From positions 1 to 33,105 of the forward strand of contig CAIZLM010000026.1 in assembly GCA_903933805.1 (NCBI GenBank): DNA of 33,105 bases. The letters run 5' to 3'. The position numbers and the translations under genes were made by a program. Positions within the stretch are counted from its first letter, which is position 1; the number at the start of each line of letters is the position of its first letter. Origin of the DNA: an uncultured Bacteroidota bacterium. Lineage in GTDB: Bacteria; Bacteroidota; Bacteroidia; Chitinophagales; Saprospiraceae. Shown piece after piece: positions 4,732-31,203 of this stretch. The notes under the pieces are model-generated. The model was not told the origin of the DNA, searched no databases, and saw nothing but the letters and a program-made list of their open reading frames with translations.

Positions 4732-4963
4732 GGGTTTTATCTCGCGAAGGCGCAAAGGCGCAAAGGGGCGAAGGCGGTAAGGAGCGAAGGCGGTAAGGGG
4801 CGAAGGCGCGAAGGATTAAAAGATAATAACTGGTTAGCGTGGTCGCTTCTGAGACAAAAAAGTGGGCATTTTTTGCCAGACACAGACAGCGTGCCACCTA
4901 ACCAGTTACAAAAGATAATCCCTTTGCCCCTTTGCGCCTTCGCGCCTTCGCGAGATAAAACCC
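4732..4963. repeat. Nested composite palindrome: GCGAAGGCG-rich inverted repeat enclosing a GTAACTGG-family element
   Basis: The outer arms are 4732-4774 and 4920-4963. They are near-perfect reverse complements of about 43 bases beginning GGGTTTTATCTCGCGAAGG and made of iterated GCGAAGG/GCAAAGG units. The left arm continues into more imperfect units (GGCGGTAAGG twice) to about 4815. At the centre sits one copy of the interspersed palindrome described below (4827-4908). The whole lies between the convergent gcvP and FAD oxidase genes, where it could act as a bidirectional terminator, though neither arm is followed by a clean T-run. Confidence 0.8.
4827..4908 (+). repeat. Interspersed palindromic repeat, copy A
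   Basis: It starts TAACTGGTTAGCGTGGTCGC and ends CGTGCCACCTAACCAGTTA, with central GAGACAAAAAA...TTTTTTGCCAGA. It is 82 bp, with a small internal duplication of CAGACA compared with the other copies. It is nested in a different inverted repeat (4732-4963). Confidence 0.85.
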
Positions 4964-4996
4964 TTCGCGTCTTTGTTTTAAAGGGTAGAATTGGCG

Positions 4997-6280
4997 TCAG
5001 TGGATCGGTGAAATGCGTGTTCTTAATGCCGAATAAAATTTCGGGTGACCAAATTCAGATGGGTTAATACCTCCCATTTTGGGATTTGAACATGCGTCTT
5101 TGGTGAGGTATATTTTTCCACCCAAATGCCAGACCAGGTCATCCAGTTTTTCAACAAGTCGGAAGATGGTGGGGGTACGTGGAAAATCGAGTGCCAACGA
5201 ATAGCCTTTAATGGGAAAGGTGTTTACCGCATTTGATGCGCGTTCTCCATGTTTCTTTAAGACACTCAAAAAGGGTACTTCGGGGCTTTTTCCAACCACC
5301 TCCAGGAGGCGCCTGATACCGTCAAACGCATTGTTTTCAGGCAAGCAAAACTGATATTGAATAAATCCACGTCGCCCGTACAACCTGTTCCAGTTGCGCA
5401 GGGCATCCAAGGGATAAAAGTAGGCGTCCATGGTTACAACCTTCTCCGCGTTTTTGTTTTTATGAAAATACAGTGCATTAAAAGCGCGGACACTCATCGG
5501 ATTGAGCAACCATTTGGGTGCAAAAACAGGGATATTGGTTTTAGGCGCTTCTAACCATTGAATGGGGGTGTCTTCTACCAGGTGTTCCGCCAAATGAACG
5601 GCCCCCTGCCCCATTCTACTACCCTTTGACGTTGTGTCAATCCACCCTGCGGCATAAGACTCCGGACGACGTTGCTCCATTGCTTGAAATAATCCGTCCA
5701 AACTATGACACTGAATGGTCTTTTGACGCATTCGGGATGATGGAACACGTTGTAATTGAAAACAAGCAGACAGAATAATACCGGTCCAACCCATTCCACC
5801 ACAAGTCTGCCAAAAAAGTGATGTATTTTGATGGCGGGAGCAGACCACAATATCGCCTTCGGCAGTTATCAATTCAAAAGAAACCAACCAATCAGAGAAA
5901 CAGCCCTTCAGCGGATGGTTTTTGCCATGTACATCAGAGGCGATGGCACCGCCAATCGTAACTTGCTTTATCCCTGGCGTCACGTGGAAGAACCAACCTG
6001 CCGGAACGATGATTGGAAGGAGGTCAGACAATAAAACACCTGCTTGGCATGAAATAACCCCTGCGACCGGGTCAAAATCTAGTATTTCACGGAGCCCCAG
6101 TGTTGAGATTACGCGGTGCCCCAAGGAGGCATCGCCATAACTTTTTCCATTTCCACGGGCAATGATTTGTTCATTGGCAAGAATACACCGTCGAACGCCT
6201 TCAATATCTTGTGGACTTGTAACTTCGGCTTCGACGATGGGATAATTTGCCCAACCGCTTATTTTTTGCAGCGTTTTCAT
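4997..6280 (-). CDS. FAD-binding oxidoreductase, DprE1-like
   Basis: This 427-residue flavoprotein belongs to the vanillyl-alcohol-oxidase/PCMH superfamily. The FAD-binding half shows RGNGKSYGDASL (42-53), GGAIASDVHGKNH (110-122) and GGMGWTGIIL (161-170). The C-terminal half contains KIYLTKDACSNP, comparable to the lysine-containing region of decaprenylphosphoryl-ribose 2'-oxidase DprE1. In actinobacteria DprE1 oxidises the prenyl-phosphate ribose to a 2-keto form that the reductase DprE2 then reduces. Here no short-chain reductase or UbiA-type prenyltransferase is adjacent, so the substrate is open. No signal peptide is seen. The gene is monocistronic, convergent with gcvP and divergent from the secreted propeller gene. 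The ATG at 6280 fits the family N-terminus. Confidence 0.8.
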   Translation of the reverse strand: MKTLQKISGWANYPIVEAEVTSPQDIEGVRRCILANEQIIARGNGKSYGDASLGHRVISTLGLREILDFDPVAGVISCQAGVLLSDLLPIIVPAGWFFHVTPGIKQVTIGGAIASDVHGKNHPLKGCFSDWLVSFELITAEGDIVVCSRHQNTSLFWQTCGGMGWTGIILSACFQLQRVPSSRMRQKTIQCHSLDGLFQAMEQRRPESYAAGWIDTTSKGSRMGQGAVHLAEHLVEDTPIQWLEAPKTNIPVFAPKWLLNPMSVRAFNALYFHKNKNAEKVVTMDAYFYPLDALRNWNRLYGRRGFIQYQFCLPENNAFDGIRRLLEVVGKSPEVPFLSVLKKHGERASNAVNTFPIKGYSLALDFPRTPTIFRLVEKLDDLVWHLGGKIYLTKDACSNPKMGGINPSEFGHPKFYSALRTRISPIH

Positions 6281-6472
6281 AGTGGTTTGTGCTTTTATGT
6301 AAGCAAATTACGCAACAATGCGGTCAAAGATACTGCACTGCTACCTTTAATAACGCACCTTTCAGGTACCAAGCAACTACTTTGCGAACAATGTTAAACC
6401 AAAGCCGTTTCTTGTCCATAAGTTGTGTTGTAACTGTCAATATTGCTATAATTGACAAAACCGATCATTGTT

Positions 6473-7360
6473 ATGTTTTCAATTTTTCGCCTTTTCGGCA
6501 TTTGTTTGATCTGTATTCCTGTCGCACTGGTGGGCCAGGAAGCCCAAATTTTAAAAAGAATACCGCTGCCACCTGCACTCAAAGAAATTTCAGGTATGAC
6601 AATTTTGCCAAACGGCGATATGTGGCTGCTGAATGATTCTCACAATCCACCGGATCTTTTCAAATTTGATCCTGTTGAGAAAAAAATATTGGCGGTAAGG
6701 CATTTGCCTGTTCAGAATTTTGACTGGGAAGATATCACCAGTGACCATCAGGGCAATCTGTATATCGGCGATTTTGGCAACAACTACAACTGTCGGCAAA
6801 ACTTGCGCATATTGGTGTACAATCCAGCTACTGGTTACCTTGACAGCATTCAATTTCATTATCCTGACCAAAAAGCGTTTCCGCCAGCGCGACAGGAGGA
6901 CTGGAATTACAACTGTGAAGCTTTGGTATTTTTCAGAGACAGCCTGCATTTGTTCTCGAAAAATGCTTTTAGCGGTAATTTTTTCACCAAACACTATGTG
7001 CTGCCAGCCAGACCAGGGAATTTCACAGCTGAACTACGCGACAGTTTGCAACTCAAAAACCGCGTTGTAACGGGCGCTGCCTTGAGCAAGGATGGCCTGA
7101 CATTGGCACTTACAGGGTATATTATCAAAACAAAACTGGGGTTTTTACCCTTTACACGAGCAAGCGCCCTATTCTTTACAGGATTTAACGAGGGCTATTT
7201 TTTATCCGGAAAAATTCAAAGGCGCCGTTTGCCAAAATTTATTTTTGCTAGACAATTTGAGTCCATTACACCGTGGAAGAATACGCAATGGTTGGTGGCC
7301 AATGAAAACAGAAAACCCCAACGCCACAGTATTTGGCGTATTAATGGTGTGAGACATTAA
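6473..7360 (+). CDS. Secreted beta-propeller-like protein of unknown function
   Basis: From the ATG at 6473 the 295-residue product starts with a signal peptide (MFSIFRLFGICLICIPVALVGQ). An upstream in-frame TTG at 6452 is less likely. The mature part has propeller-like blade phrases: ISGMTILPNGDMWLLNDS, FDWEDITSDHQGNLYIGDFG, then CEALVFFRDSLHLFSKN. The DWEDI...LYIGDxGNN phrase recurs in uncharacterised secreted propeller proteins of Bacteroidota. I recognise no catalytic motif and no T9SS sorting tail. It precedes mqnA by 24 bases, but mqnA has its own -7 element in that gap. Confidence 0.65.
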   Translation: MFSIFRLFGICLICIPVALVGQEAQILKRIPLPPALKEISGMTILPNGDMWLLNDSHNPPDLFKFDPVEKKILAVRHLPVQNFDWEDITSDHQGNLYIGDFGNNYNCRQNLRILVYNPATGYLDSIQFHYPDQKAFPPARQEDWNYNCEALVFFRDSLHLFSKNAFSGNFFTKHYVLPARPGNFTAELRDSLQLKNRVVTGAALSKDGLTLALTGYIIKTKLGFLPFTRASALFFTGFNEGYFLSGKIQRRRLPKFIFARQFESITPWKNTQWLVANENRKPQRHSIWRINGVRH

Positions 7361-7369
7361 TCCAAAAAC

Positions 7370-7377
7370 TACCTTCG
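7370..7377 (+). promoter_or_regulatory. Probable -7 promoter element (TACCTTCG) for mqnA
   Basis: This octamer is identical to the one before gcvP and lies 7 bases upstream of the mqnA ATG, between that gene and the preceding stop codon. Its position would make the mqnA message nearly leaderless. Confidence 0.35.
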
Positions 7378-7384
7378 TGCTGCT

Positions 7385-8155
7385 ATGCCGAAAATTCGAA
7401 TATCTGCTGTTAGTTATCTGAATACCAAGCCCTTCATATACGGACTGTTCCGCAGTGATTTAGCAGATTCCATCGAGCTAAGTCTAGACATTCCGTCCGT
7501 TTGTGCTGAAAAATTACTCGCAGGAACCGTTGACCTTGCACTCACCCCAGTGGCCATTATCCCAGAATTATCGGAAGCCTACCTCGTTTCTGATTATTGT
7601 ATTGGGACCGTTGGAAAAGTAAAAACGGTGTGTATTTACGCAGAACAACCCCTCTCCGAAATCAAAAAAATATACCTTGATTTCCATTCCAGAAGTTCTG
7701 TGGCCCTTACCAAACTGCTTTGTAAGCACTACTGGAATATAACGCCAGAATTAATCCCCGCTACACAAGGATTTGAAGATCAAATAGTTGGCACCAATGC
7801 TGCTTTGATTATTGGCGACAGAACCATTGGCCTGGAAAATCGATATCCGTTTGTTTATGACCTAGGAGAAGCGTGGATGGCCTGGACGGACTTGCCTTTT
7901 GTCTTTGCCGCCTGGATCGCCGTAAAACCGCTGAACCCAGCGATCATGGCCCGATTTAACCAAGCATTGCAATCGGGTATAGACCACATCCCTGAACTGG
8001 TCAAAATACTCCCCACCATGCACAATTTTGATGTTGAAGCATATTTTAGAGACAATATCAGCTACAACCTAGACGACGCCAAATGGCAGGGACTCAACCA
8101 TTTCCTCCAATACATAGCCGGTGAAAAAGGATTTCAACTGCACAGAACAGTCTGA
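7385..8155 (+). CDS. mqnA: Chorismate dehydratase, menaquinone biosynthesis (futalosine pathway)
   Basis: At 256 residues the length is typical of MqnA. The protein opens with the family hallmark SYLNTKPF (10-17), the substrate-pocket segment of the periplasmic-binding-protein-like MqnA/MqnD fold. GTVDLALTPVAIIPEL and IYLDFHSRSSVALTKLL follow at the expected places. MqnA dehydrates chorismate to 3-[(1-carboxyvinyl)oxy]benzoate, the first step of the futalosine route to menaquinone. The related MqnD is the alternative, but the SYLNTKP motif and the DxxSRSSVAL region favour MqnA. It sits between the propeller gene and msrA with short gaps (24 and 33 bases) and is probably co-transcribed with msrA. 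Confidence 0.9.
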   Translation: MPKIRISAVSYLNTKPFIYGLFRSDLADSIELSLDIPSVCAEKLLAGTVDLALTPVAIIPELSEAYLVSDYCIGTVGKVKTVCIYAEQPLSEIKKIYLDFHSRSSVALTKLLCKHYWNITPELIPATQGFEDQIVGTNAALIIGDRTIGLENRYPFVYDLGEAWMAWTDLPFVFAAWIAVKPLNPAIMARFNQALQSGIDHIPELVKILPTMHNFDVEAYFRDNISYNLDDAKWQGLNHFLQYIAGEKGFQLHRTV

Positions 8156-8188
8156 AACCATCGAGCGTCGTTAAACCAACTGGAATGT

Positions 8189-8788
8189 ATGTTGTTGTTG
8201 TCAAAAAAGAATTCAATGTCAACAAAAGAACAACCAGCTGACTTTCCCCAAAAAACAGCCGTAGCAACCTTGGGAGGGGGATGTTTTTGGTGTGTGGAAA
8301 TCATGTACCAAGACCTACAAGGCGTGTTGAAGGTGGAGAGCGGCTATTCCGGTGGACGTTCTGTTAATCCCACCTACCAAGAAATTTGCACTGGACGTTC
8401 GGGCCATGCCGAGGTCATTCGGGTTACTTTTGACCCGTCTCTCCTAAGTTACAGGGAAATATTGGACGTTTTTTTTACGATCCATGATCCTACCACCCTG
8501 AATCGTCAGGGGAATGACCGCGGGACACAATACAGATCCGTCATTTTTTACCATTCCGAAGACCAAAAAATTATTGCACGGGAATCAAAAATAGCGGCCC
8601 AAGCGCTTTGGGAAAGTCCCATTGTTACTGAAATTTCTTTGCTGGAAAATTTTTATCCTGCAGAAAGCTACCACCAAAACTACTTCAAAGACAACCCCAA
8701 CCAGCCTTATTGCTCCATTGTTATTGCTCCTAAAGTGCGGAAATTTCGTGATAAATACCGCAGCAAGTTGAATCCATCTGTCATCTGA
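8189..8788 (+). CDS. msrA: Peptide-methionine (S)-S-oxide reductase
   Basis: This 199-residue enzyme carries the active-site motif GGGCFWC (29-35, catalytic Cys32), the downstream GYSGG, a histidine-containing GHAEVIRVTFDP, and the block FFTIHDPTTLNRQGNDRGTQYRS, all characteristic of MsrA. It reduces methionine-S-sulfoxide in damaged proteins or free methionine, using a thioredoxin-type reductant. No signal peptide is evident, so it is probably cytoplasmic. An in-frame ATG at 8216 would remove nine residues and fits the family equally well. The gene ends tail-to-tail with the T9SS type B gene, the stop codons overlapping within 8781-8788. Confidence 0.95.
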   Translation: MLLLSKKNSMSTKEQPADFPQKTAVATLGGGCFWCVEIMYQDLQGVLKVESGYSGGRSVNPTYQEICTGRSGHAEVIRVTFDPSLLSYREILDVFFTIHDPTTLNRQGNDRGTQYRSVIFYHSEDQKIIARESKIAAQALWESPIVTEISLLENFYPAESYHQNYFKDNPNQPYCSIVIAPKVRKFRDKYRSKLNPSVI

Positions 8789-9860
8789 CCAAACTGAAAC
8801 CGCCTTTTTCAAAAAAAGTAGTCCCATCAAAACGCTCCAACTCAGCCCCAAATATATAGGTTCCGGTATCCATCACCTTTCCGTTGTATAGGCCATCCCA
8901 GCCTTCATCCGGACTGTTGGGTGTAATATTCCTTCGGTCATAAATAAGATCACCCCACCTATCAGCAATGAAAAAACGTTTAATATTCACGACAGTCCGA
9001 TCACAATGGAGCGAATAATGGTTGTCTGGCCATCGTGCATCCGGGCTAAACACATTGGGGGCGTACACTTGGTTTTTATTTGAGATGCGGAATTTTACCT
9101 CATCCTGCAAAACACAACCACTAGTATCTGTTGCAATGAGGGTAAAAACAACCGGTGCCGTCAACATGATACAAGACGTGCTACACAAGGAATCTGGACA
9201 AGGCGCTGTAGGAAGCCATACAAAACTTGTAGGAGTTAGCCCATATTGGGGCGTAATACACACCGTATCACCTTTAATGATGACCCTGTCTTCTCCAATA
9301 TAGAGCCACAAATTTCGAAATTCCAAGTCGATGGCCACAATAGAATCACAGCCAGAACTAGAGGCATTGGGGAGTATTTCATAGCCTACCCGATTGTTGT
9401 AGTCGTATCGCGTACCGTTGATTGTATAAAACCCATCGGGACAAAGGGTGTCCCTCAAGTTAGAAAAAGGCGGTGTTAGTACTGTAATCAGCACATTGAC
9501 AATGCTGTCACAAAGCCCGCTTGAAAAAACTTCTGTACCTTGCAAATGAAAGGCATGATAAGCTGTTCCGTTGACATAAATGGAGTCACCCTCACAAATG
9601 GTGGCGAAAAAATTGGCGCTGACAGGGTGTAAGTAAGTAAGCTGAACCTGCACAATACTATCTCCGCCGTTCAAAGCAGCCCCTGTCAACACGACCACGC
9701 CCACCGGTTTTGATGGGCCAAACACTTGATCGCCTACGATAACCTCTTGGTCGTTGCAGAAGGTATCGCGCAACAAATATTGTCCAATTTGGCCCGAGGC
9801 CGAGCCCAGCGACAAAAGAAATATGATAGCCAATAAAAAGTACTGTGAGCTCTTAAACAT
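8781..9860 (-). CDS. T9SS type B (gliding-motility-associated) secreted protein
   Basis: The 359-residue product has a signal peptide (about 1-23, ending SASGQ). Three degenerate repeats of about 45 residues follow at roughly 29-78, 86-130 and 136-182. Each begins with a cysteine cluster (DTFC, TICEGDS, DTLCPDG) and ends (C/G)DSIV plus a short beta strand. The last 98 residues are a type B sorting domain: VYAPNVFSPDA, then FFIADRWGDLIYDRR, EGWDGLYNGKVMDTGTYIF and a final beta strand. Such tails direct export through the type IX secretion system to the cell surface or medium. The partner or role is unknown; the repeats suggest an adhesive or structural protein. Confidence 0.88.
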   Translation of the reverse strand: MFKSSQYFLLAIIFLLSLGSASGQIGQYLLRDTFCNDQEVIVGDQVFGPSKPVGVVVLTGAALNGGDSIVQVQLTYLHPVSANFFATICEGDSIYVNGTAYHAFHLQGTEVFSSGLCDSIVNVLITVLTPPFSNLRDTLCPDGFYTINGTRYDYNNRVGYEILPNASSSGCDSIVAIDLEFRNLWLYIGEDRVIIKGDTVCITPQYGLTPTSFVWLPTAPCPDSLCSTSCIMLTAPVVFTLIATDTSGCVLQDEVKFRISNKNQVYAPNVFSPDARWPDNHYSLHCDRTVVNIKRFFIADRWGDLIYDRRNITPNSPDEGWDGLYNGKVMDTGTYIFGAELERFDGTTFFEKGGFSLVR

Positions 9861-9954
9861 GGGGCTGATACTTTGATCGGAGGGTCAAACCCAGTGGCTA
9901 ACCACTGAATTCAGCCACAAAAATCGCACAAGTTTTTCGATAAGTGCAAAACAA

Positions 9955-9980
9955 ATTTACTATCTAACCAGTTACTTTTA
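9955..9980 (+). repeat. Remnant half of the interspersed palindromic repeat
   Basis: TATCTAACCAGTTACTTTTA matches the outer right end of the element (CTAACCAGTTAC). The sequence upstream shows no convincing left arm. The end creates TACTTTTA (9973-9980), close to the -7 consensus, 40 bases before the next gene. Confidence 0.5.
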
Positions 9981-10019
9981 ACCATTGCTATTCCGTCTTG
10001 TTTACAATTGAACCTTTCT

Positions 10020-10460
10020 ATGATTTATTACCGACAATGCTGTTTGCTGTTTCTATCACTTCTGGGGAGTATCGCCATTCTTTTCGGTCAAACAAACAAT
10101 ACCCGAACTGTATTGGCTGTTGAGCAAGCCCGATTTGATGCGATGATTCAGTCCGATACCATTAAACTTGAAACATTGCTGGACAAGAAATTGTTGTACA
10201 TCCATTCCAATGGACTAAAAGAAACCAAAAAAGATCATATTCGATCTATAGGTACTCGAAAAATAGTGTACCAGCAAATGAATCGGGCGGAAAATAGTAT
10301 CCGTTTTTTTGGAAAAACGGCTATTTCTGCTGGTGTCATTCAGGTTAAAGGAATACTTTCTGGAACCCCTTTTGATGTACGGATGTTGTACACCGCAATT
10401 TACCGGAAACGAAAACATAAGTGGTTGTTGGTAAACTGGCAGAGTACGCGTCTATCCTAA
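10020..10460 (+). CDS. Small secreted SnoaL/DUF4440-like (NTF2-fold) protein
   Basis: From the ATG at 10020 (a TTG four codons upstream is less likely) the product is 146 residues. The signal peptide runs about 1-23 (ending ILFGQ). The mature part shows the DUF4440/NTF2-like pattern: VLAVEQARFDAMIQSDTIKL, LLDKKLLYIHSNG, then strand-rich IQVKGILSGTPFDVRMLYTAIYRKRKHKWLLVNWQSTRLS. This ends as these small alpha+beta-cone proteins usually do (W.l...qsT.l). Some family members bind small ligands, but no activity can be assigned. The stop codon TAA lies in a decayed copy of the palindromic repeat. Confidence 0.75.
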   Translation: MIYYRQCCLLFLSLLGSIAILFGQTNNTRTVLAVEQARFDAMIQSDTIKLETLLDKKLLYIHSNGLKETKKDHIRSIGTRKIVYQQMNRAENSIRFFGKTAISAGVIQVKGILSGTPFDVRMLYTAIYRKRKHKWLLVNWQSTRLS

Positions 10461-10545
10461 TGGTTACCGACTTCAGCAGCAAACTGTCTTGCACAACTAG
10501 ATGCGTTTTTTGTCTCCGACACGACTACCTAACCAATCGCCTTAA
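10458..10545 (-). repeat. Decayed copy F of the interspersed palindromic repeat
   Basis: The right half, 10503-10540 (TTTTTTGTCTCCGACACGAC followed by TACCTAACCAAT), matches the reverse complement of the left arm of the intact copies. The left half (TAATGGTTACCGAC...CTGTCTTGC) is heavily diverged and begins at the TAA stop of the preceding gene. The orientation is opposite to copies A, B, D and E. Confidence 0.6.
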
Positions 10546-10552
10546 TTATTCC

Positions 10553-10759
10553 ATGATTTTGAAAAAGTTAACCGCTCCAAAACGGGACAAGCTGGTAGAA
10601 AACAGGGATTACTACCTCGAAAATGGGTATTGGGTCATGACAGCTCAATTTCTTCGTCAACGGGGTTATTGTTGTGGCAGTGGATGCCGACATTGTCCTT
10701 ACACCAAATTAGACTATACCCTACCCGGGGAATCAACAAAAAAGGAGACTTGTCAGTGA
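10553..10759 (+). CDS. DUF5522 family Cys-rich miniprotein
   Basis: The 68-residue product starts at the ATG at 10553. The open frame extends further upstream, but only into the decayed repeat. It contains the hallmark GYCCGSGCRHCPY (38-50), with four cysteines and a histidine that could hold a metal or iron-sulfur centre, preceded by DYYLENGYWVMTAQF. Proteins with GYCCGxGCRHCPY are widespread in Bacteroidota and annotated DUF5522; the function is unknown. The stop codon overlaps the stop of the opposing glucosaminidase gene (TCAGTGA, 10753-10759). Confidence 0.88.
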   Translation: MILKKLTAPKRDKLVENRDYYLENGYWVMTAQFLRQRGYCCGSGCRHCPYTKLDYTLPGESTKKETCQ

Positions 10760-11538: not shown

Positions 11539-11687
11539 GCTCTATTGTGTTGATTTTATCGACAAATTTAAAGCATTTTTTTTATTTAAAAACAAAATGT
11601 TTTAAAAATAATTTTCTAGTTGTGTAGAACGACAAATCAAATTTGAATGCTTTTTTGTCATTAATACGTTAGTTTTGAAGAAAAACC

Positions 11688-11695
11688 TATTTTTG
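11688..11695 (+). promoter_or_regulatory. -7 promoter element (TATTTTTG) for the BadF-type kinase gene
   Basis: An exact TAnnTTTG match in the AT-rich divergent region, about 85 bases upstream of the ATG at 11783. A TTTG at 11674-11677 is too close to be the -33 element, so only the -7 part is supported. Confidence 0.4.
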
Positions 11696-11782
11696 CACCC
11701 ATTCGTGTATTTTTTACAAAAAGGGGGTACTTTTTAACCTCCACCCTACTGATCTGCATTTCATAACGAACATACATAAAAC

Positions 11783-12631: not shown

Positions 12632-12674
12632 GTGAGTTATTGGGTGTTTGAATACTGTTTCTGAAAGAAAAAAA

Positions 12675-14404: not shown

Positions 14405-14435
14405 CCTTTTTTCTTTTTCGGCATAAAAGTAAAAA

Positions 14436-14576
14436 GTAACTGGTTAGGTGGTCGCGTCTGAGCCAAATAAGTGGCTATTTTTTGCCAGCCTTAGCAGCTA
14501 AACAGTAAAAAATGCGCGAAGAAAGGCGAAAAATGGTCCTTTTTTGGACCAGACTGCGTGCGACCTAACCTGTTAC
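14436..14576 (+). repeat. Interspersed palindromic repeat, copy B (expanded centre)
   Basis: The left arm is GTAACTGGTTAGGTGGTCGC followed by GTCTGAG. The right end is GACCTAACCTGTTAC. Between them the usual core (CAAATAAGTGGCTATTTTTTGCCAG) is followed by about 60 extra bases, which end in a second hairpin-like TGGTCCTTTTTTGGACCA. The total length is 141 bp. Confidence 0.8.
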
Positions 14577-14776: not shown

Positions 14777-14796
14777 TGATAATCTAGAAAAGTAAC

Positions 14797-17021: not shown

Positions 17022-17073
17022 GTAATTTCAGTTTTGTTTGCTAAAAATATTGCCCGTTCATCAAACCAGTTAC
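17022..17073 (+). repeat. Remnant of the interspersed palindromic repeat
   Basis: It ends in AAACCAGTTAC (17063-17073), the outer right end of the family. The left part (GGTAATTTCAG...) is only a weak match. It lies just after the DHH gene and 48 bases before the first FKBP gene. Confidence 0.4.
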
Positions 17074-18058: not shown

Positions 18059-18221
18059 GTAACTGGTTAGGTGCCACGCTGTCTGGCCCAAAAAGGCACA
18101 TTTTCAGCCATACTTCGCAGATTTTTTTGACCGTAGCGCTGCCACGGCCTACAAAAATCCGCTTCGTCTAACAAAAAATGGCCCATTTTTTGTCTCAGAC
18201 GCGACCACGCTAACCAGTTAC
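18059..18221 (-). repeat. Interspersed palindromic repeat, copy C (inverted, expanded centre)
   Basis: It starts GTAACTGGTTAGGTGCCACG and ends GACCACGCTAACCAGTTAC. The TCGCGTCTGAGACAAAAAA arm is on the right, so this copy is inverted relative to A, B, D and E. The centre is expanded by about 80 bases containing a second inverted repeat (GCAGATTTTTTT...AAAAATCCGC around CCGTAGCGCTGCCACGG). The total is 163 bp. The right end forms TACTTTTC (18219-18226), 17 bases before the next start codon. Confidence 0.85.
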
Positions 18222-20292: not shown

Positions 20293-20370
20293 GTAACTGG
20301 CAAGGTGGTCGCGTCTGCGACAAATAAATGGGCCTTTTTGGGCCAGACAGCTTGCCCCCTAACCAGCTAC
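20293..20370 (+). repeat. Interspersed palindromic repeat, copy D
   Basis: This compact 78-bp copy starts GTAACTGGCAAGGTGGTCGC and ends CTTGCCCCCTAACCAGCTAC, with central ACAAATAAATGGGCCTTTTTGGGCCAGA. It lies three bases after the prfB stop codon. Confidence 0.85.
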
Positions 20371-21378: not shown

Positions 21379-21459
21379 TTATGACAACCTGTACTTGAGT
21401 TAACCCCAGAATCACACTTTACATTATTTCAATCTTTTATCTTTTTTAAGCAATAAAAA

Positions 21460-23136: not shown

Positions 23137-23175
23137 GCCCTCAAACCCATCTATCAGCAACAACCTAAACATACT

Positions 23176-23766: not shown

Positions 23767-23912
23767 CGTACTTTTGCCGCATCTGGTGAATTACATGGTG
23801 AAGGTCGTGGCAATTTTTTTAGCACTCAAAACGTAATGTCGGCAAATTACGCTGCTAAATGTCAAATTTGTACGCCACAAGTTTGCCCACAACAAGTACT
23901 ATCTACAATGCA

Positions 23913-23955
23913 GAGGTTTACCATGCACATCTACGGAAGTGCATTGGTGAACCTC
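23913..23955 (+). other. Isolated long hairpin of unknown role
   Basis: GAGGTTTACCATGCAC (23913-23928) pairs with GTGCATTGGTGAACCTC (23939-23955), with one wobble or mismatch and one bulged T. The loop is 10 bases. No T-run follows, so it is not a standard terminator. The rest of 23767-24058 holds nothing else I can identify. Confidence 0.6.
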
Positions 23956-24058
23956 GCGTCGTTATAAACCCTACTTACGTAAGAATTTAAGGTCATCCCC
24001 TAAAATCTCAAAGCCTGATATGATTTGCGTCGTACCTTCCCGCAAAATTTACTTCTCC

Positions 24059-26965
24059 ATGCGGAAAACTCAAAGCTCTTTTTCACTATTTTGGTTGCTG
24101 CTCTGCACCTTTTTTAGCAGTTTGCACCTTGCTATCGGCCAATCAACGCCAACGGATGCCGCGACAAGGATGCAGGGCTTTGAACAGCGGAAAGCACTGA
24201 AAAACAACTCCTTACTCTCCGCCATCACCCCTGAAAGTATAGGACCCAGTATTTTTTCCTGCCGCATCACAGACCTGGACGTCAATCCTGATGACCCAAC
24301 AGAACTCTATGTGGCTTATGCCTCTGCAGGACTCTGGCACAGCAAAAACAACGGAACCAAGTTGGATCCAATTTTCGACCATCAAGCAAGCATGACAATC
24401 GGCGATATTGCCGTGGATTGGAAAAACAACATCCTTTGGGTAGGTACGGGAGAGGCCAATAGCAGCCGCTCTTCGTATGCCGGGACTGGCATTTACCGCA
24501 GCGCCGATGGTGGTGCATCTTGGGAAAACTGCGGCCTTGCAGAAAGCCACCACATTGCCCGTATAGTCTTACATCCCAATGATCCCAACACCTTGTGGGT
24601 GGCCGTTGTTGGACACTTGTATTCCCCCAACACAGAACGGGGCATTTATAAAACCACAGACGGTGGAAAATCCTGGAAACAAACCCTTTTTATCAACGAA
24701 AACAGTGGCGCCATAGACCTGGTACTCGACCCCTCCAACCCCAATACGCTGTACGCGGCATCTTGGGAACGGAGTCGCACCGCCTGGAATTTTGCCGGCG
24801 CAGGTGAAGGATCGGGTATATGGAAAAGTACCGACGGCGGAAGCACTTGGGCGTTATCCAGTACCGTGGCCAGCGGATTCCCCACGGGTAAAACCATCGG
24901 TCGAATCGGGCTTTCTGCCGGCAAAAAAGAAGGCAAAACAGTCCTCTATGCTTGTCTGGACAACCAAAATCCAAAACCAAAAAAAGAGACATCAAAAGAA
25001 GACGCGCTCACCACAGACCAATTGCGGGATATCTCCACAGAAGATTTTTTAAATATCCCTGACAATAAACTGACCGATTTCTTAAAAGAACACGACTTCC
25101 CAGAAAAATACAACGCAAAAAAAGTAAAAGCTTTGGTGGAAAAAGACAAGTTCAAGCCCCTCGCTTTGGTGGAATACTTGGAAGACGCCAACAATAAACT
25201 TTTTGAAACCGATTATACCGGTGCTGAATTGTTCCGCAGCGATGATGGCGGCACCACCTGGACCCGCACCCACAGCGATCCGTTGGAACAATTACATTTT
25301 ACCTACGGGTATTACTTTTCCAATGTGCGCTGCATGCCCGAAGATGCCGACAAGGTGTATATGATTGGCTTTTACATCATCAGTTCTGATGATGGGGGCA
25401 AAACATGGGCAAACATCAACGGCGACAACGTGCATGTTGACCACCATGCACTGTGGCTAAATCCCGCACGGCCAGGGCATCTTGTCAATGGCAATGACGG
25501 CGGTTTAAATATCTCTTGGGACAACGGAACTTCCTGGATAAAATGTAACAACCCCGCTGTTGGTCAGTTTTATGCCATCGAAACCGACGAATCAGAACCC
25601 TATAATGTCTATGGCGGTGCACAAGACAATGGCGTCTGGGTTGGCCCCTCCGACTACGAGGCATCCACAGCATGGCAACAAACCGGACAATATCCATACA
25701 AGGAACTGATGGGGGGCGACGGCATGCAAATACAAGTTGACTCTCGGGACAATACGACGGTGTACACAGGCTTCCAATTCGGCAATTATTTCAGAATCAA
25801 TAAGTCCGATGGAAAATCAACCCCAATTACTCCCAAACACGACTTGGGTGAGCGCCCCTTGCGGTTCAATTGGCAAACCCCCATCCATTTGAGCCGCCAC
25901 CAACAGGATGTGCTGTACCTGGGCGCAAACAAATTATACCGTTCTTTCAACCAAGGCGACAATTGGGAAGCCATTTCCGGAGACCTCACCCAAGGCGGAA
26001 AACAGGGCAATGTACCCTATGGTACCCTCACCAGCATCCATGAAAGTCCCCTGAAATTTGGCCTGCTTTACGCAGGTTCTGACGATGGACTGCTCCATGT
26101 TTCACGCGATGGCGGTGAAAACTGGACAAGAATATCCGACAGTCTCCCCCAAAACCTGTGGGTCTCCCGTGTTCAGGCGTCAACCCATGCGCGCGCTCGT
26201 GTGTACACGAGCCTAAACGGATACCGATGGGACGATTTCAATGCCTACCTTTATACCTCAGAGGACTATGGGAAAAACTGGACACGTATTGGCGCCAACT
26301 TACCTGCAGAGCCCATCAACGTCGTGCGAGAAGACCCCACCAATCCCGATGTGCTCTATGTAGGAACCGACCACCAGGTGTATGTATCCCTTGACAAGGG
26401 GGTAACTTTCCAAACGCTGAGCAATGATTTTCCAGATGTTCCTGTGCACGACCTGAAGGTGCAAACCAGCTCCAAAGAACTCATCATCGGCACCCATGGA
26501 CGGGCATTGTACAAGACCTCCATTGACCTTGTGCAACAACTCAACAGCGATTTACGCGCAGAAACCATCCACCTTTTTAAAGTGCCCAACAAAAAATACA
26601 ACAAAAATTGGGGTAAAAAACAACCTTACAAGGCTTTGAAGGATCCTGTGTTGCCGATATCTTTTTGGGTAGCCACCAAAGGTGATGTTGAATGGACCTT
26701 GAAACACCAAGAAAGTGGTATTGTGTTGAACAACGGCGTACTTCAGGGATCACCAGGGGTTAATATTTTCAACTTTTCGATGGATGTACAAGCTACTTCT
26801 TTAAAAAAATACAAGGAAATACTCCAAACGGCGCAGAAAGATCAAAAAATAACGTTTGATTTGGCCAAAGCCGACACAGGAAAGACCTACCTCCGAAAAG
26901 GGGACTATATCTTTGTGGTGTCTAAAGATGGCAAGACCTCCGAGCAGGCCGTTGTCATCGAATAA
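24059..26965 (+). CDS. Large secreted VPS10/BNR-repeat beta-propeller protein
   Basis: From the ATG at 24059 the product is 968 residues with a signal peptide (about 1-28, ending LHLAIGQ). A TACCTTCC element at 24033-24040 supports this start over an upstream in-frame ATG at 24020. The body consists of repeated BNR/Asp-box phrases such as YRSADGGASW, YKTTDGGKSW, WKSTDGGSTW, FRSDDGGTTW, ISSDDGGKTW, VSRDGGENW and TSEDYGKNW. These define two seven-to-ten-bladed propellers like those of sortilin/VPS10 and xyloglucanase-type GH74 folds. A Lys/Glu-rich insertion sits between propeller blocks at about residues 300-385, and a beta-sandwich-like tail ends the protein. No obvious T9SS tail is seen. Such proteins are abundant in Bacteroidota and usually uncharacterised; glycosidase activity is not demonstrated by these motifs. 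Confidence 0.85.
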   Translation: MRKTQSSFSLFWLLLCTFFSSLHLAIGQSTPTDAATRMQGFEQRKALKNNSLLSAITPESIGPSIFSCRITDLDVNPDDPTELYVAYASAGLWHSKNNGTKLDPIFDHQASMTIGDIAVDWKNNILWVGTGEANSSRSSYAGTGIYRSADGGASWENCGLAESHHIARIVLHPNDPNTLWVAVVGHLYSPNTERGIYKTTDGGKSWKQTLFINENSGAIDLVLDPSNPNTLYAASWERSRTAWNFAGAGEGSGIWKSTDGGSTWALSSTVASGFPTGKTIGRIGLSAGKKEGKTVLYACLDNQNPKPKKETSKEDALTTDQLRDISTEDFLNIPDNKLTDFLKEHDFPEKYNAKKVKALVEKDKFKPLALVEYLEDANNKLFETDYTGAELFRSDDGGTTWTRTHSDPLEQLHFTYGYYFSNVRCMPEDADKVYMIGFYIISSDDGGKTWANINGDNVHVDHHALWLNPARPGHLVNGNDGGLNISWDNGTSWIKCNNPAVGQFYAIETDESEPYNVYGGAQDNGVWVGPSDYEASTAWQQTGQYPYKELMGGDGMQIQVDSRDNTTVYTGFQFGNYFRINKSDGKSTPITPKHDLGERPLRFNWQTPIHLSRHQQDVLYLGANKLYRSFNQGDNWEAISGDLTQGGKQGNVPYGTLTSIHESPLKFGLLYAGSDDGLLHVSRDGGENWTRISDSLPQNLWVSRVQASTHARARVYTSLNGYRWDDFNAYLYTSEDYGKNWTRIGANLPAEPINVVREDPTNPDVLYVGTDHQVYVSLDKGVTFQTLSNDFPDVPVHDLKVQTSSKELIIGTHGRALYKTSIDLVQQLNSDLRAETIHLFKVPNKKYNKNWGKKQPYKALKDPVLPISFWVATKGDVEWTLKHQESGIVLNNGVLQGSPGVNIFNFSMDVQATSLKKYKEILQTAQKDQKITFDLAKADTGKTYLRKGDYIFVVSKDGKTSEQAVVIE

Positions 26966-27053
26966 ATACAGCTCATTGCGCCAATTTGCGCTGATTCTTA
27001 ATCGCTTCAAACACCATCAGTTTTCCACAAAAATTTTAAACCTATTCTTTGTA

Positions 27054-27833
27054 ATGAAAAATTTGAAAAACCTTTTTCTAGCAATACTCGTACTCGGTGC
27101 AACTGCGCTGACTGGCTGCCTGCACATCATTGAAGAGGCTACCTTTAGAAACAACGGCAGCGGCACGTATAAAATGACGTTCGACATGAGTGAACTCAAA
27201 GGCATGATGGACATGATGAAAGGCATGGGCGGCGAAGGTGCTGCAGAACCGAGTGACTCATCCAATTTATCTGACGGCGGTGACTTCACGCCCCCCGCAC
27301 CTTCACCGGAAGCATCCAACCCCATGAGTGGGCTGTCTGAACAATTTGGCGGTGTTGCAACATCCCTAAAAAACATTCCCGGTATTTCCAATGTGGTGGA
27401 AATGAATGATACGACAGCTTTCAACTTTGGCTACTCGTTTGATTTTGCAGATATCGCGGCCCTCAATCGAGCGCTTAAAGTTATCGGCAAAGAAAAATAC
27501 GACACTAAAAACGAGGAAACATTCAAGTACAACGGAAAAAGTTTCGAACGACTGGGAGTGGGTGATATGGGCGCCGAAATCAAAAAAGCGGTAGCCGAAA
27601 ATACCGGAGAAGCAGAAGGCGAAGAAGGACAGGCTGATATGATGAAAATGTTTTTCGCAGATATGAGCTACAAGCAGGTGTACCACTTTCCCGACCGCGA
27701 AGTGAAAAAATCTGACAATAAACTCGGTGAAATTGGTGACAACGGGCACTCCCTGACGATCAACATCAAACCATTCGACGAAGAGCAGCAAAAACAAAAA
27801 GTTTCTGTAGCAACCAAAATTAAGCTCAAATAA
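27054..27833 (+). CDS. Putative lipoprotein of unknown function
   Basis: From the ATG at 27054 the 259-residue product begins with a lipoprotein signal peptide ending LTGC (Cys22). After it come EEATFRNNGSGTYKMTFDMSELKGMMD, a Met-rich helix, and a disordered stretch rich in Ser, Asp and Pro (about 60-95). The C-terminal part is mixed alpha/beta and ends in VSVATKIKLK. I recognise no named family with confidence. The pattern (outer-membrane lipoprotein beginning with a short 'GSG.Y...DMS' strand) is seen in uncharacterised Bacteroidota proteins. It is followed by a strong terminator (27851-27899) and is probably monocistronic. Confidence 0.75.
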   Translation: MKNLKNLFLAILVLGATALTGCLHIIEEATFRNNGSGTYKMTFDMSELKGMMDMMKGMGGEGAAEPSDSSNLSDGGDFTPPAPSPEASNPMSGLSEQFGGVATSLKNIPGISNVVEMNDTTAFNFGYSFDFADIAALNRALKVIGKEKYDTKNEETFKYNGKSFERLGVGDMGAEIKKAVAENTGEAEGEEGQADMMKMFFADMSYKQVYHFPDREVKKSDNKLGEIGDNGHSLTINIKPFDEEQQKQKVSVATKIKLK

Positions 27834-27850
27834 GTCAATTGTTTTCCCCG

Positions 27851-27899
27851 TCACGCAAAGATACCCTGCGCTAAGGCCCTGTATCTTTGCGTGATTTTT
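27851..27899 (+). terminator. Terminator of the lipoprotein gene, perfect 14-bp stem
   Basis: TCACGCAAAGATAC (27851-27864) is exactly complementary to GTATCTTTGCGTGA (27881-27894), followed by TTTTT. The right arm contains TATCTTTG (27882-27889), an exact -7 promoter match facing kynU, so the hairpin could double as part of the kynU promoter. Confidence 0.8.
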
Positions 27900-27933
27900 G
27901 TAAATACTAAGGTGCCAATGTAATACCTGCGCC

Positions 27934-29265
27934 TTGTCTTTACTTCACAACAAATACAACCAAACAAATAATCCATTGGCGTATATTTACAAAAACACCC
28001 TCGCCTTTGCCCAATCACTTGACGAACAGGATCAACTACGTCGTTTCAGACAACAGTTTATCTTTCCATCACAGAAGGGGGTAGAAAGCCTTTATTTTTG
28101 TGGAAACTCCCTGGGACTTCAGCCTAAGACCGTACGGGATGCCCTGCTTTCAGAGCTTGATCAATGGGCTGACCATGCTGTTGAAGGCCATTTTAAAGGG
28201 GATAAGCCTTGGATGCACTACCACAAACTCCTGACAGCGCCATCTGCCACATTGGTGGGCGCCCTTCCACATGAAGTGGTGGTGATGAACACCCTCACCA
28301 CAAACCTCCATCTGTTGATGGTGTCCTTTTACAGACCAACGACCAGCCGTTTCAAAATCATCATGGAAGCAGGTGCATTCCCCAGCGACCAATATGCCAT
28401 GGAGAGCCAAGTGCATTTGCATGGGTTTGATCCTGCAGAAGCGATTATCGAAGTTGCACCAAGGGCCGGCACTGAATTATTGAACACCGCCGATATTTTG
28501 GAAGCCATTGAGCAAGCCGGAGACGCGCTCGCTTTGGTGATGTTCAGCGGCGTCAATTACTATACAGGTCAATTGTTTGACATCGAAGCAATCACCGCAA
28601 AGGCACACCAAGTAGGCGCAAAGGCAGGTTTTGATCTGGCCCATACCACCGGCAATATTCCACTCCATTTACACCAGTGGGGGCCTGATTTTGCGGTCTG
28701 GTGCAGCTACAAATACCTCAATGCCGGACCAGGGGGGCCTTCTGGACTGTTTGTGCATGAGCGGCATGCCGACAACCCCAGTCTGCCACGATTTGCAGGA
28801 TGGTGGGGGCATGATGAAAGCGAAAGATTCAAAATGTCCAAAGGATTCAAGCCGATGTACGGTGCCGAAGGGTGGCAACTCAGCAACGCTCAGATTTTTT
28901 CCTTTGCTGCGCACTTGGCGGGTTTAAAAATAATGGACGAGGCTGGTATTGAAAATTTACGACAAAAAAGTCTGGTACTCACCGGATACTTAGAGCATAT
29001 TTTGGACGAACTCAATGGGGAAGCGGAACATTTTCGGATCATAACACCCCGAGATTCAGCCGCCAGAGGCTGTCAATTGTCCGTATTGACCAACAATGGG
29101 GGACGAGCACTGTTTCAGTTTCTAACGGACAATGGTGCAATAGTCGACTGGAGAGAACCCAATGTAATTAGGATCGCCCCGGTGCCCATTTACAACAGTT
29201 TTGAAGATATCTGGAAATTGGGTGCCCTCATCAGCCAATACCTGCAAGCAAACCATCAATCTTGA
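27934..29265 (+). CDS. kynU: Kynureninase
   Basis: This PLP enzyme hydrolyses kynurenine (or 3-hydroxykynurenine) to anthranilate (or 3-hydroxyanthranilate) and alanine, in tryptophan degradation and de novo NAD synthesis. The sequence shows YFCGNSLGLQPK, the VMNTLTTNLHLLMVSFY segment, GAKAGFDLAHTTGN with the Asp that binds the PLP nitrogen, and the Schiff-base lysine in WCSYKYLNAGPGGPSGLFVHE (Lys260 if started at 27934). There is no in-frame ATG near the N-terminus. The frame must start at a TTG, either 27934 (443 residues) or 27976 (429 residues, closer to typical kynureninase N-termini such as NTLAFAQSLDEQDxLRxFR). No other kynurenine-pathway gene is in the window. Confidence 0.93.
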   Translation: MSLLHNKYNQTNNPLAYIYKNTLAFAQSLDEQDQLRRFRQQFIFPSQKGVESLYFCGNSLGLQPKTVRDALLSELDQWADHAVEGHFKGDKPWMHYHKLLTAPSATLVGALPHEVVVMNTLTTNLHLLMVSFYRPTTSRFKIIMEAGAFPSDQYAMESQVHLHGFDPAEAIIEVAPRAGTELLNTADILEAIEQAGDALALVMFSGVNYYTGQLFDIEAITAKAHQVGAKAGFDLAHTTGNIPLHLHQWGPDFAVWCSYKYLNAGPGGPSGLFVHERHADNPSLPRFAGWWGHDESERFKMSKGFKPMYGAEGWQLSNAQIFSFAAHLAGLKIMDEAGIENLRQKSLVLTGYLEHILDELNGEAEHFRIITPRDSAARGCQLSVLTNNGGRALFQFLTDNGAIVDWREPNVIRIAPVPIYNSFEDIWKLGALISQYLQANHQS

Positions 29266-29343
29266 TTTATTCATCATATTAATTCTTCGTAACATTGCCC
29301 TATTAAATTGACGTTACATTTCAAATTTGTTCAATATCTGATC

Positions 29344-30963
29344 ATGAAAAATTTTCTTTTACATTTTCTTTTCCTTATCCCACTGCTATCGTCCGCCCAA
29401 ACGACCACAAAACCTACGCGTCCGCTGTTTGACAAAAAAACTGTCGGAGAAATTAGAATCACATTTGCGACGAAAAACTGGTCCGATGCGCTGGACTCCC
29501 TTCGGATATACGGCGGTGGACTGATGAATGCCACTGCCACCATTGATGGTATCACCTACCAAAGTGTGGGCGTACGTTTCCGCGGAGACAAGTCCTATGC
29601 CACGGGCCTGAAGCGCAACCCACTCAGTTTGAAATTGAACCACACCATCGCCGATCAAAACCACCAAGGCTACACCAGTCTCAAACTTTCTGCTGCTGTA
29701 CGCGACCCCAGTATGGTGCGCGAGATATTGTTTCATGAAATAGCCGGCAAGTACATGCCTACGTCACAGGCCTGCTACACCAAACTGTTTGTCAACGACG
29801 AGTACATCGGCGTATTTGTGGACCTTGAAAACGTTGAAAAACAAATGCTGGAAGCGAACTTCTCCACTGGGAAGGGTGCTTTTTTCAAGGCAGGCGTTGA
29901 CTACAAACCTGAAAATCTCCCCAACGACTGCAAACTCAATATTTTCGGATCCCTGGAATACGAAGACAATATAGAGTGTTACAAGGGAAATTTTGAAATG
30001 AGTTCGAACTCCGGATGGGCAGAATTACAAGAACTGACCCGTCAGTTGGCGCAAGGTCCAAAAGAAGTTGAAAAAATCCTGGATGTTGACCGCGCACTTT
30101 GGATGTTGGCTTTGAACAACGTAATGGTTAATTTAAGCAGCTATTCAGGCAACCACAGCATCAACTACTACCTTTTTCGGGACGGGAACGGCCGTTTTCA
30201 GCCCCTTCATTGGGACCTGAATTTATCATTTGGGAGCTACAAAAATACCGGTAGCGGCAGTGACCTCGAATTAAAAGGCCTCCAAAACCTGGATCCTCTG
30301 CTGCACGCCGACAACCCGTATAAACCCCTAGCCAGTCAGTTGCTGAAGGATCCCTTCAACCGGAAAGTGTACCTTGCCCACATCCGCCAAATCAATGAAG
30401 AGAACTTTCTGAACGGCAGTTACGAAAAACGCGCCCAAGAGCTACAGGGAATGATTGTCGTTCCTTTCAACGAAGACAAAAATAAAACCTACAGCTTGGA
30501 TGACTTTACGCGAAGCCTCAAAGAAACCGTCGGCAAAAAAAGTAAAATACCCGGGCTGGTCGAATTGATGGGCAAACGGTCAAGATTTCTCAAATCACAC
30601 CCTGAACTTACTTCACTGCCAAGTACAATCTCCGACGTAAAAGTATTGGGCCGCGGCAAATTTGAAAATCAACCACTAAACGCCTTTAATATTACCGCAA
30701 AAGCCGATCGGTTTCCCAAACGCTTGTTGCTTTGCTACCGTTTTAACATAACAGAACCCTATTCTACCATCCCCATGAGTGAGGACAACACAACCACCAT
30801 GCCCTCCGGCATGAAAGCCTTTACAGCCATGGTAGAAGCAAAAACAAGGGAAGCAGAAATGGAGTATTTCATCATCGCAGAAAACGCCGGAACCGTGGGT
30901 TTCGCACCAGTCAATTACTCAAAACAAGCGCTGAAAATCAAATTAAGCGATCTGAATAAATAA
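29344..30963 (+). CDS. CotH kinase family secreted protein (first of a tandem pair)
   Basis: From the ATG at 29344 the product is 539 residues with a signal peptide (about 1-18, ending LSSAQ). The CotH domain shows GVRFRGDKSY, LSLKLNH, LKLSAAVRDPSMVREILFHEIAGKYMP, then NDEYIGVFVDLENV. The metal/nucleotide-site region is INYYLFRDGNGRFQPLHWDLNLSFGSY (Asp291 in WDLN). CotH proteins are atypical protein kinases first known from Bacillus spore coats. In Bacteroidota they are secreted and often modify or assemble surface proteins, but the targets are unknown. The C-terminal 100 residues look like a beta-sandwich domain. The stop codon overlaps a remnant of the palindromic repeat. Confidence 0.88.
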   Translation: MKNFLLHFLFLIPLLSSAQTTTKPTRPLFDKKTVGEIRITFATKNWSDALDSLRIYGGGLMNATATIDGITYQSVGVRFRGDKSYATGLKRNPLSLKLNHTIADQNHQGYTSLKLSAAVRDPSMVREILFHEIAGKYMPTSQACYTKLFVNDEYIGVFVDLENVEKQMLEANFSTGKGAFFKAGVDYKPENLPNDCKLNIFGSLEYEDNIECYKGNFEMSSNSGWAELQELTRQLAQGPKEVEKILDVDRALWMLALNNVMVNLSSYSGNHSINYYLFRDGNGRFQPLHWDLNLSFGSYKNTGSGSDLELKGLQNLDPLLHADNPYKPLASQLLKDPFNRKVYLAHIRQINEENFLNGSYEKRAQELQGMIVVPFNEDKNKTYSLDDFTRSLKETVGKKSKIPGLVELMGKRSRFLKSHPELTSLPSTISDVKVLGRGKFENQPLNAFNITAKADRFPKRLLLCYRFNITEPYSTIPMSEDNTTTMPSGMKAFTAMVEAKTREAEMEYFIIAENAGTVGFAPVNYSKQALKIKLSDLNK

Positions 30964-31003
30964 CCACTTGGTATGTCGCGTGCATAACAACCCAACCAGT
31001 TTA
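30961..31003 (+). repeat. Remnant of the interspersed palindromic repeat at a stop codon
   Basis: TAACCACTTGGTATGTCGCGTG is followed by ACCCAACCAGTTTAG, which keeps GTCGCGT and the CCAACCAGTT end of the family. It begins on the TAA of the preceding gene. Confidence 0.4.
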
Positions 31004-31074
31004 GAAAAAAACAAATGACAATAAAACACCTCGTTTTTACTTCTGGTCTGAAATACATAACAAGCATTTAACAC

Positions 31075-31113
31075 AAAAACCGCCGGGCATCTTTTGCCGC
31101 CCGGCGGTTTTTT
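31075..31113 (+). terminator. Terminator of the first CotH gene, 14-bp stem
   Basis: AAAAACCGCCGGGC (31075-31088) pairs perfectly with GCCCGGCGGTTTTT (31099-31112), with a 10-base loop, and the T-run continues. It is a strong intrinsic terminator 112 bases past the stop. Confidence 0.9.
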
Positions 31114-31126
31114 CTTTATTTTGCCC

Positions 31127-31203
31127 GTAAGTGGTTAAGTGGTCGCGTCTGAGACAAAAAAATAGCCATTTTTTGCCAGACAGCGTGCCTACTAACCAAT
31201 TAC
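31127..31203 (+). repeat. Interspersed palindromic repeat, copy E
   Basis: This compact 77-bp copy starts GTAAGTGGTTAAGTGGTCGC and ends CGTGCCTACTAACCAATTAC, with central GAGACAAAAAAATAGCCATTTTTTGCCAGA. It lies directly after the terminator at 31075-31113, and its right end runs into TACTTTTG (31201-31208). Confidence 0.85.

Follow-up and report, generated by a model that had tools for sequence, protein, structure and literature searches.

Miniature inverted-repeat transposable elements (MITEs) of bacteria are usually taken to arise by deletion from one insertion sequence (IS) and to be short-lived. The accounts of Correia, ERIC, MITEAba12 and MITECca01, in the portions drawn on here (PMC10969869, PMC9769881), describe elements that are short, noncoding, bounded by inverted repeats, mostly intergenic and abundant, and the same applies to the repeat family treated in this work, which is scattered over a 33,105-nucleotide stretch of DNA (the window, i.e. 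positions 1 to 33,105 of contig CAIZLM010000026.1, assembly GCA_903933805.1) from an uncultured bacterium of the Saprospiraceae (Bacteroidota). MITECca01, from the Bacteroidota symbiont Cardinium, has according to the same portion of text one parent, an IS982 element, whereas here a body of ~162 bp occurs in many genera with ends of at least three transposon specificities. The ISBst12 group of the IS66 family (e.g. ISDge4, in the section cited from PMC12898284) has GTAACT.. ends and an 8-bp target duplication in common with our element, but the latter is without a transposase gene and shares no body sequence with the IS elements that we found. Repetitive extragenic palindromes (REPs) and bacterial interspersed mosaic elements (BIMEs), together with their REP-associated tyrosine transposases (RAYTs), are also a case of abundant intergenic palindromes, but REPs measure 20-40 bp, according to the section cited from PMC3733652.

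We consider it probable that the family is a MITE whose ends are read by IS66 transposases, and that it represents a burst of an old ~162-bp lineage in which the body is selected and the transposase changes. The earlier note on this DNA had expected copies elsewhere in the genome, and they are plentiful: in the host draft genome (G000; 4,206,178 bases in 336 contigs, the window being contig C26) a search for the left-end pattern, allowing 2 mismatches, gave 762 matches versus 16 for its reversed control, an excess of ~746 left ends, and one for the right end, allowing 1 mismatch, gave 471 versus 0. At 78-163 bp each, ~746 copies would make up roughly 1.4-2.9% of the genome. The anatomy of the element was studied in 34 host stretches plus the window (377,461 bases); the stretches were picked around matches to copy A of the window, so that the ratio of long to short forms is biased. 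Eighty elements were paired and 3 compound pairings dropped, leaving 77 (75 with full flanks), of which 52 measure 75-84 nt and 23 measure 161-165 nt, the other two being decayed (135 and 141 nt). Their terminal inverted repeats are 12-16 bp long (GTAACTGGTTAGGTGG / CCACCTAACCAGTTAC), with GTAAC..GTTAC ends. Terminal inverted repeats, a duplication of fixed length, a noncoding interior, a length under ~300 bp and many copies all mark the element as a MITE. The short form reads as the long form minus an internal stretch between two near-repeats (left ..AAAAAAGTGGCCATTTTTTGCCAGAC, right ..GAAAATGGGCCTTTTTGGGCCAGAC), and because the position of the join, judged by eye, differs in the 78-, 79- and 80-nt versions, more than one deletion event is suggested.

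Target-site duplications and a preference for intergenic sites, two properties that the earlier note had proposed to look for, were both found. The duplication is 8 bp long: it is exact in 27 of the 75 copies, matches at 7 of 8 positions in a further 20, and positional flank identity peaks sharply at k=8 (75% versus 35% in shuffled pairs, 0 of 200 shuffles reaching this value). Exact duplications flank 20 of 51 short copies and 7 of 24 long ones (two intermediates included); on the short form they do not prove that this form itself moves, because shortening in place keeps the duplications too. The sole empty-site evidence is a nested insertion, a short copy (L034 5129-5207) lying within a long copy and flanked on either side by TTTTTTGA. 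As to placement, the midpoints of 67 of the 77 copies fall outside open reading frames (ORFs) of at least 100 aa, versus 18% of random positions. Inverted repeats, 8-bp duplications, mostly intergenic placing, the nested insertion and the same-ended transposase relatives described below agree with the suggestion that the family is MITE-like and non-autonomous. Excision scars were also considered, in the form of a 12-mer (GTAACTGGTTAC/GTAACCAGTTAC) expected from end-to-end slippage, and were rejected, there being only 2 in 377,461 bases, too few for the purpose. A palindrome GTAACTGGTTAC at L020 6827-6838, just upstream of a MITE copy, has 8-mers at its flanks that match at 7 of 8 positions, and may be the trace of a collapse or an excision.

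The portion cited from PMC11946415 names GTAA ends and 8-bp duplications as characters of the IS66 family, and for ISDge4, of the ISBst12 group, the pertinent section of PMC12898284 gives the ends GTAACTGCTCAGCA and GTGACTACTCAGCA and, from a jump that was observed, a repeat of 8 bp. The 12-bp ends of the MITE (GTAACTGGTTAG), together with an 8-bp duplication, also bound ISBst12-type transposons of the IS66 family in related genomes. Two of these are from the host's genus, namely a 1050-bp element with GTAACTGGTTAGCCT ends and an internally deleted tnpC (L078, genome G025) and an element with GTAACTGGTTAGCCT ends and the duplication TTTTCAGA, whose tnpC is broken by two IS1-like inserts (L080, genome G009); the third, from a sister genus (L090, genome G042), measures 1554 bp and has GTAACTGGTTAGCC ends, the duplication AAAAAAAT and a long tnpC ORF. 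At L080 585-3714 both inserts in the transposase gene are copies of one IS1-like element. From the common ends and duplication we infer that the element is a MITE on which an ISBst12-type IS66 transposase most likely acts in trans.

The host itself has three IS66 loci by Pfam (L043, L044 and one ISBst12-type gene). As candidates for a parent IS in the host we rejected L043, which is of the classical IS66 kind with ends GTAAGCCTCCCAC, L044, a truncated relative of L043, and L045, which has only GTAACT in common with the MITE. A search of the host with the L090 protein found four further tnpC fragments that belong to the GTAACTGGTTAG lineage; their identity is 57-59%, three contain stops, and their ends are of the GTAACTGGTTAG type, exact or decayed. 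In one of the four, L123, 36 bases are those of the left end of the MITE itself, and this fragment may be recombinant, because no duplication is visible around it. As to the same-ended transposase gene that the earlier note had proposed to look for, every one seen in related genomes (L078, L080, L090) is broken or frame-shifted, and the host has fragments only. The enzyme behind the burst may have been lost, may be missing from the draft, or may be the GTAACTATCCAG relative acting on foreign ends. An origin of the body from an IS was rejected as well: when a long copy trimmed of its ends was compared with eight IS elements and fragments by short-word BLAST, only chance matches of 9-13 nt were seen, the MITE-like end of L123 being the exception.

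The wider samples consisted of 398 genomes of the host's bacterial family (112 genera) and 394 other genomes of a phylum sample (L145, L156 and L170 were excluded from use). A degenerate end pattern has 566 matches in the host and at most 45 in any other of the 398 family genomes. Ten end matches in G014, a genome of the host's genus, belong to a sister element of 162 nt, nine of them complete in the fetched stretches, and among 20 fetched end-match stretches four (L130, L131, L134, L136) hold MITEs of 147-162 bp with a recognisably similar body. Nineteen elements found by their ends were aligned (alignment A1: 8 of the 23 long copies of the host, 7 of the 9 complete ones of G014, both of G376 and one each of G210 and G281; L127 of G258 did not align and was kept out). 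They have a common hairpin, with 96.5% of cells paired and 19 of the 44 pairs changed on both sides versus 12.5 in shuffled and at most 8 in slid alignments. The covariance model R1 has matches at E<=0.001 in 174 of the 398 family genomes and 61 of the 112 genera, nearly all of the matches listed being full-length (158-165 nt). The model R2 matched at E<=1e-5 the host and 8 of the 394 other phylum-sample genomes, five of them in one other family; it is not satisfied by just any hairpin, as 386 of the 395 phylum-sample genomes are without a match. Since the covariance searches of whole genomes scored the best 7 candidates per genome, they speak of presence and not of copy number. A broader alignment (A2) has 42 members of all end classes, hand-picked for variety (37 of 60 fetched members and 5 others), and here 89.8% of cells are paired, 41 of 44 pairs are double-changed versus 31.0 in shuffled and up to 31 in slid alignments, and the covariation score is 0.585 versus 0.190 (shuffled) and at most 0.173 (slid). 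R1 helped to choose the rows of A2, so A1 is the cleaner test, and the cells stand for sequences rather than for independent events.

Two further observations were made among the end matches. MITEs with GTAACTGTTTAG ends at L128 584-763 (G258) and L124 557-671 (G172), flanks matching at 7 of 8 positions in both, have interiors rich in ACTAAACCCT-like repeats that are telomere-like in look. In G166, contig C12 (66-3195), five GTAACTGGTTAGCCAG matches on one strand are spaced 519 bp or twice that, and are probably a tandem array.

Sixty further members of the lineage, chosen by a class I-trained model, were classed by their first letters. Class I (27 members in 11 genomes) has GTA/GTG/GTT-type ends, the flanks matching at 8/8 positions in 7 members and at 7/8 in 5. 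Class II (12 members in 9 genomes) has GAGC/GAAG-type ends and an exact 3-bp TNA duplication in 7 members, and class III (20 members in 6 genomes) has (TA)GACTT-type ends with TA on both sides in 12; no member of these two classes has 5 or more of 8 flank positions matching. The remaining member, L215, could be put in none of the three. Using sequence alone, a profile made from class I cores trimmed of their ends matched at E<1e-3 26 of 27 members of class I, 12 of 12 of class II, 20 of 20 of class III and the unclassed member, in this small set preselected with R1; the exception was L208 (class I, E 0.0085), and 1200 shuffled decoys gave one match, of 4.9 bits. In genome G059 the cores of two members are 87% identical and their ends 46% identical. 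The core tree, made from 42 rows without their ends, has at least 6 class changes, and 0 of 200 bootstrap trees make any class one clade.

Ends like those of the different classes occur on transposons. The class I end GTAAAAACTTAG is common to MITEs (G012, G003) and IS66 elements (G007), and so is another, GTAACTATCCAG (MITEs of G059 and G012, the IS66 of the host). An 871-bp IS5-like element (PF01609) of G204 has GAGTATGTTC ends, with the duplications TAA, TTA and TTA in the copies examined (L244, L245 and L247), and a two-ORF IS5-like element of 882 bp in G020 (L239) has TAGACTTCTTGCGAAAG ends. Among known systems, the relatives of classes II and III come closest to the IS1031-like (TNA) and IS427-like (TA) groups of the IS5 family; the ends and 2-3 bp duplications of these groups resemble those of the two classes, the ends being only partly identical, and they are not of the class in the window. 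A short class II form of about 50 bp (L286 1126-1174) stands beside the ~161-163-bp form in G020 and parallels the 78/163 pair of the host. An autonomous element with class II ends was looked for in two G020 stretches with ends about 1 kb apart, and no transposase was seen by eye; the stretches contain 161-nt elements (duplications TAA and TTA), a ~49-nt element, a lone end and ordinary genes.

What keeps the body constant might be its shape. Predicted curvature is high in all 42 members of A2 (mean z -5.6 versus shuffles), and the curvature ends ratio, which depends on the wedge parameters chosen, is 0.635 versus 0.895 for control DNA rich in tracts, with 4 of the 747 controls as low; by class it is 0.619 (I), 0.696 (II, i.e. 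less curved) and 0.617 (III). A/T-tracts are phased with a peak at 10.5 bp (mean R 0.75 versus 0.39 in shuffles), but 9.3% of random mirrored layouts are equally phased and 1 of 60 column shuffles reaches R 0.75, which weighs against our interpretation, so that we do not take the phasing as proof of bending, to which it points only suggestively; the predicted curvature is the stronger of the two. We propose the following mechanism as probable. An ISBst12-type IS66 transposase would recognise the 12-bp ends, act in trans and leave the 8-bp duplication. The full ~163-bp form is predicted to fold end to end as one imperfect hairpin, the ~78-bp copies read as products of internal deletion between the two near-repeats, and the host element would be a local burst of an old ~162-bp lineage that crosses genera and reaches into a few more families within the phylum. 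Length, sequence and pairing of the body are conserved, while the terminal ~12-14 bp vary and match different transposons, i.e. ISBst12-type IS66 elements (8-bp duplication) and IS5-like ones with a 3-bp TNA or a TA duplication. The body would be the selected part, a hairpin or curved-DNA chassis that helps the synapsis of the ends or limits the harm done by insertions, and its complementary arms would let a new end be copied from arm to arm, allowing a change of transposase. We infer both this chassis function and the route of end exchange.

Several observations besides the phasing controls weigh against this interpretation. The flanks match at 6/8 positions or worse in 28 of the 75 copies. 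No clearly intact partner with the same ends was seen, L078 and L080 being broken and the C-terminal part of the L090 ORF lying, by eye, in a different frame from its relatives; in the host genome an intact transposase with GTAACTGGTTAG ends was not found, and the only complete ISBst12-type gene there has the ends GTAACTATCCAG. Descent from an IS is likewise not shown, the ends (and L123) being all that the long element and the IS elements have in common. Other end-matched MITEs have unrelated bodies: L127 of G258 did not align, and L124-L126 of G172, L128-L129 of G258, L132 of G278 and L143 of G205 differ both in length and when inspected by eye. The 60 wider members are enriched for likeness to class I, because the model that picked them was trained on class I, the IS5-like elements match the ends of class II/III MITEs only partly (GAGTATGTTC versus GAGCATGTTG), and the firm branches of the core tree alone force only one origin per class. 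We are evenly divided on the stronger proposition that the element is a phylum-wide, transposase-hopping parasite, a curved hairpin selected for its shape that is independent of any one IS and outlives them, swapping its ~12-bp ends among unrelated transposases (IS66/ISBst12 and two IS5-like types) and exploiting the complementarity of its arms to transfer a newly acquired end to the opposite side.

The compensatory changes could have another origin. In quasi-palindrome correction one arm templates the other during replication, and it is possible, if doubtful, that such correction and not structural selection produced the changes seen here. The whole element is one long hairpin, a substrate for such correction, and arm-to-arm copying without selection could account for part of the covariation, but not for the conserved asymmetry: specific mismatches, loops and left/right differences are conserved across genera, where free correction would erase them, and the length stays near 162. 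It is also unlikely, in our opinion, that the body is kept for use by the host, e.g. as a two-way terminator, an RNA processing site or a small RNA, with transposition only spreading it. Such a use would suit the compensatory changes, the T- and A-tracts beside GC stems and the intergenic placing, but no clear preference for convergent genes was detected among the 61 copies with both neighbours (16 +-, 17 ++, 15 -- and 13 -+, versus 33 +-, 45 ++, 30 -- and 40 -+ for all gaps >100 bp), and arm-to-arm copying could keep the pairing without selection.

We find it improbable that the element is an ordinary internal-deletion MITE of one IS66, and that the wider lineage is convergence scored by a structure model. 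MITEs are commonly held to be insertion sequences minus the transposase (in the portion cited from PMC5896051), MITECca01 is derived from ISCca4 in the section cited from PMC9769881, and the members were partly found by the structure model. Against this, no internal sequence is common to the element and the IS elements found, 61 genera have elements of ~162 bp with a core that can be aligned, the sequence-only core profile fits all classes, the relatives in A1 were found by ends and not by structure, and the great majority of the phylum-sample genomes are free of matches. As to the mover proposed by the earlier note, a RAYT (IS200-like Y1) enzyme acting on REP/BIME-like palindromes, the palindromic form, the mostly intergenic placing, the hundreds of copies and the conserved orientation would agree with it, but we regard it as very improbable, because 8-bp duplications of the target are indicative of a DDE transposase (RAYT/IS200-type moves are not known to leave any), the element has terminal inverted repeats of 12-16 bp, and DDE transposons carry the same ends; no search for a RAYT gene was made.

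Turning back to the window under our preferred reading, a MITE with IS66-read ends, the five full copies described there earlier are all present at almost the positions given, copy C being inverted as stated (Table 1). The common ends, the core of A-tract, GGCC and T-tract, and the conserved asymmetry had been described correctly. The size of ~78 bp claimed for the family applies to copies A, D and E, while copy C, with the decayed copy B, belongs to a separate class of ~163 nt. Only one of the four claimed remnants stands out; the others are not above noise, as 9955-9980 (best E 6.9) and 30961-31003 (E 5.2) are at noise level with the short and long profiles and 17022-17073 has no match up to E 10 with either. 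The density is therefore not one copy per 3.7 kb but one per about 5.5 kb in the window, and similar genome-wide. Copy C is far above chance with a profile made without the window copies (E 1.6e-54), and as single-stranded DNA it is predicted to fold into one long hairpin (-40.6 kcal/mol, z -6.3); copy A likewise gives a hairpin (-21.8 kcal/mol, z -6.1). Copy E overlaps the upstream part of a mechanically called ORF (31131-32831). Copy A is enclosed by an inverted array made up of 8-bp units (AAGGCGCN; window 4732-4818 and 4921-4963), 95% complementary over 43 nt; the copy occupies the loop, as does its duplication AAAAGATA.

Table 1. Copies of the element in the window (TSD, target-site duplication).
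Feature	Position	Strand	Remarks
Copy A, short form, 84 nt, small internal duplication	4826..4909	+	TSD AAAAGATA on both sides
Left 8-bp target duplication of copy A	4818..4825	.	right copy at 4910-4917
Decayed short-form remnant	10473..10536 (about)	-	short profile E 3e-7; covariance model E 0.2
Copy B, decayed long form, 141 nt	14436..14576	+	7/8 flank match
Copy C, full long form, 163 nt	18059..18221	-	TSD TGAGAAAA, 8/8
Copy D, short form	20293..20370	+	7/8 flank match; begins 3 bases past an ORF stop
Copy E, short form	31127..31203	+	7/8 flank match

Among the first 100 left-end matches listed for the host genome, seven contigs (C2, C38, C40, C48, C49, C61 and C81) have a left end within their first 50 bases, and the repeat probably breaks the draft assembly, because copies stand at contig starts. 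A long copy was also seen in L118 (CAJAVU010000005.1), a contig binned as part of an uncultured Flavobacteriales metagenome-assembled genome. L118 is the sole record with an exact 27-base end in that scan, within which the window's own genome may not have been included, and the contig is perhaps misbinned.

The earlier note knew of no described family to which the repeat belongs, and our comparisons agree. None of 25 sources submitted to Rfam, in which L144, a close long copy of the host, stood in for the window, reached a gathering cut-off. The Rfam matches of the long hairpins, mostly to microRNA models and far under the cut-offs, were rejected, as was a match to Flavo-1 (23 bits versus a cut-off of 42), which was not repeated in 20 more members. 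Nothing in the open-access literature searched was recognised as this element or as IS66-linked MITEs; a 161-bp MITE in the section cited from PMC12888890 has a 4-bp repeat, lies inside another element and is a different thing.

By its tested features the element is thus a MITE of a known kind, and what is unusual is a conserved body with differing ends. If our interpretation is true, a non-autonomous element can form a lineage of its own, able to switch the enzyme that moves it, and the family would offer a testable case for the role of a MITE's interior. On the practical side, a repeat that stands at contig starts bears on the draft assembly of this genome.

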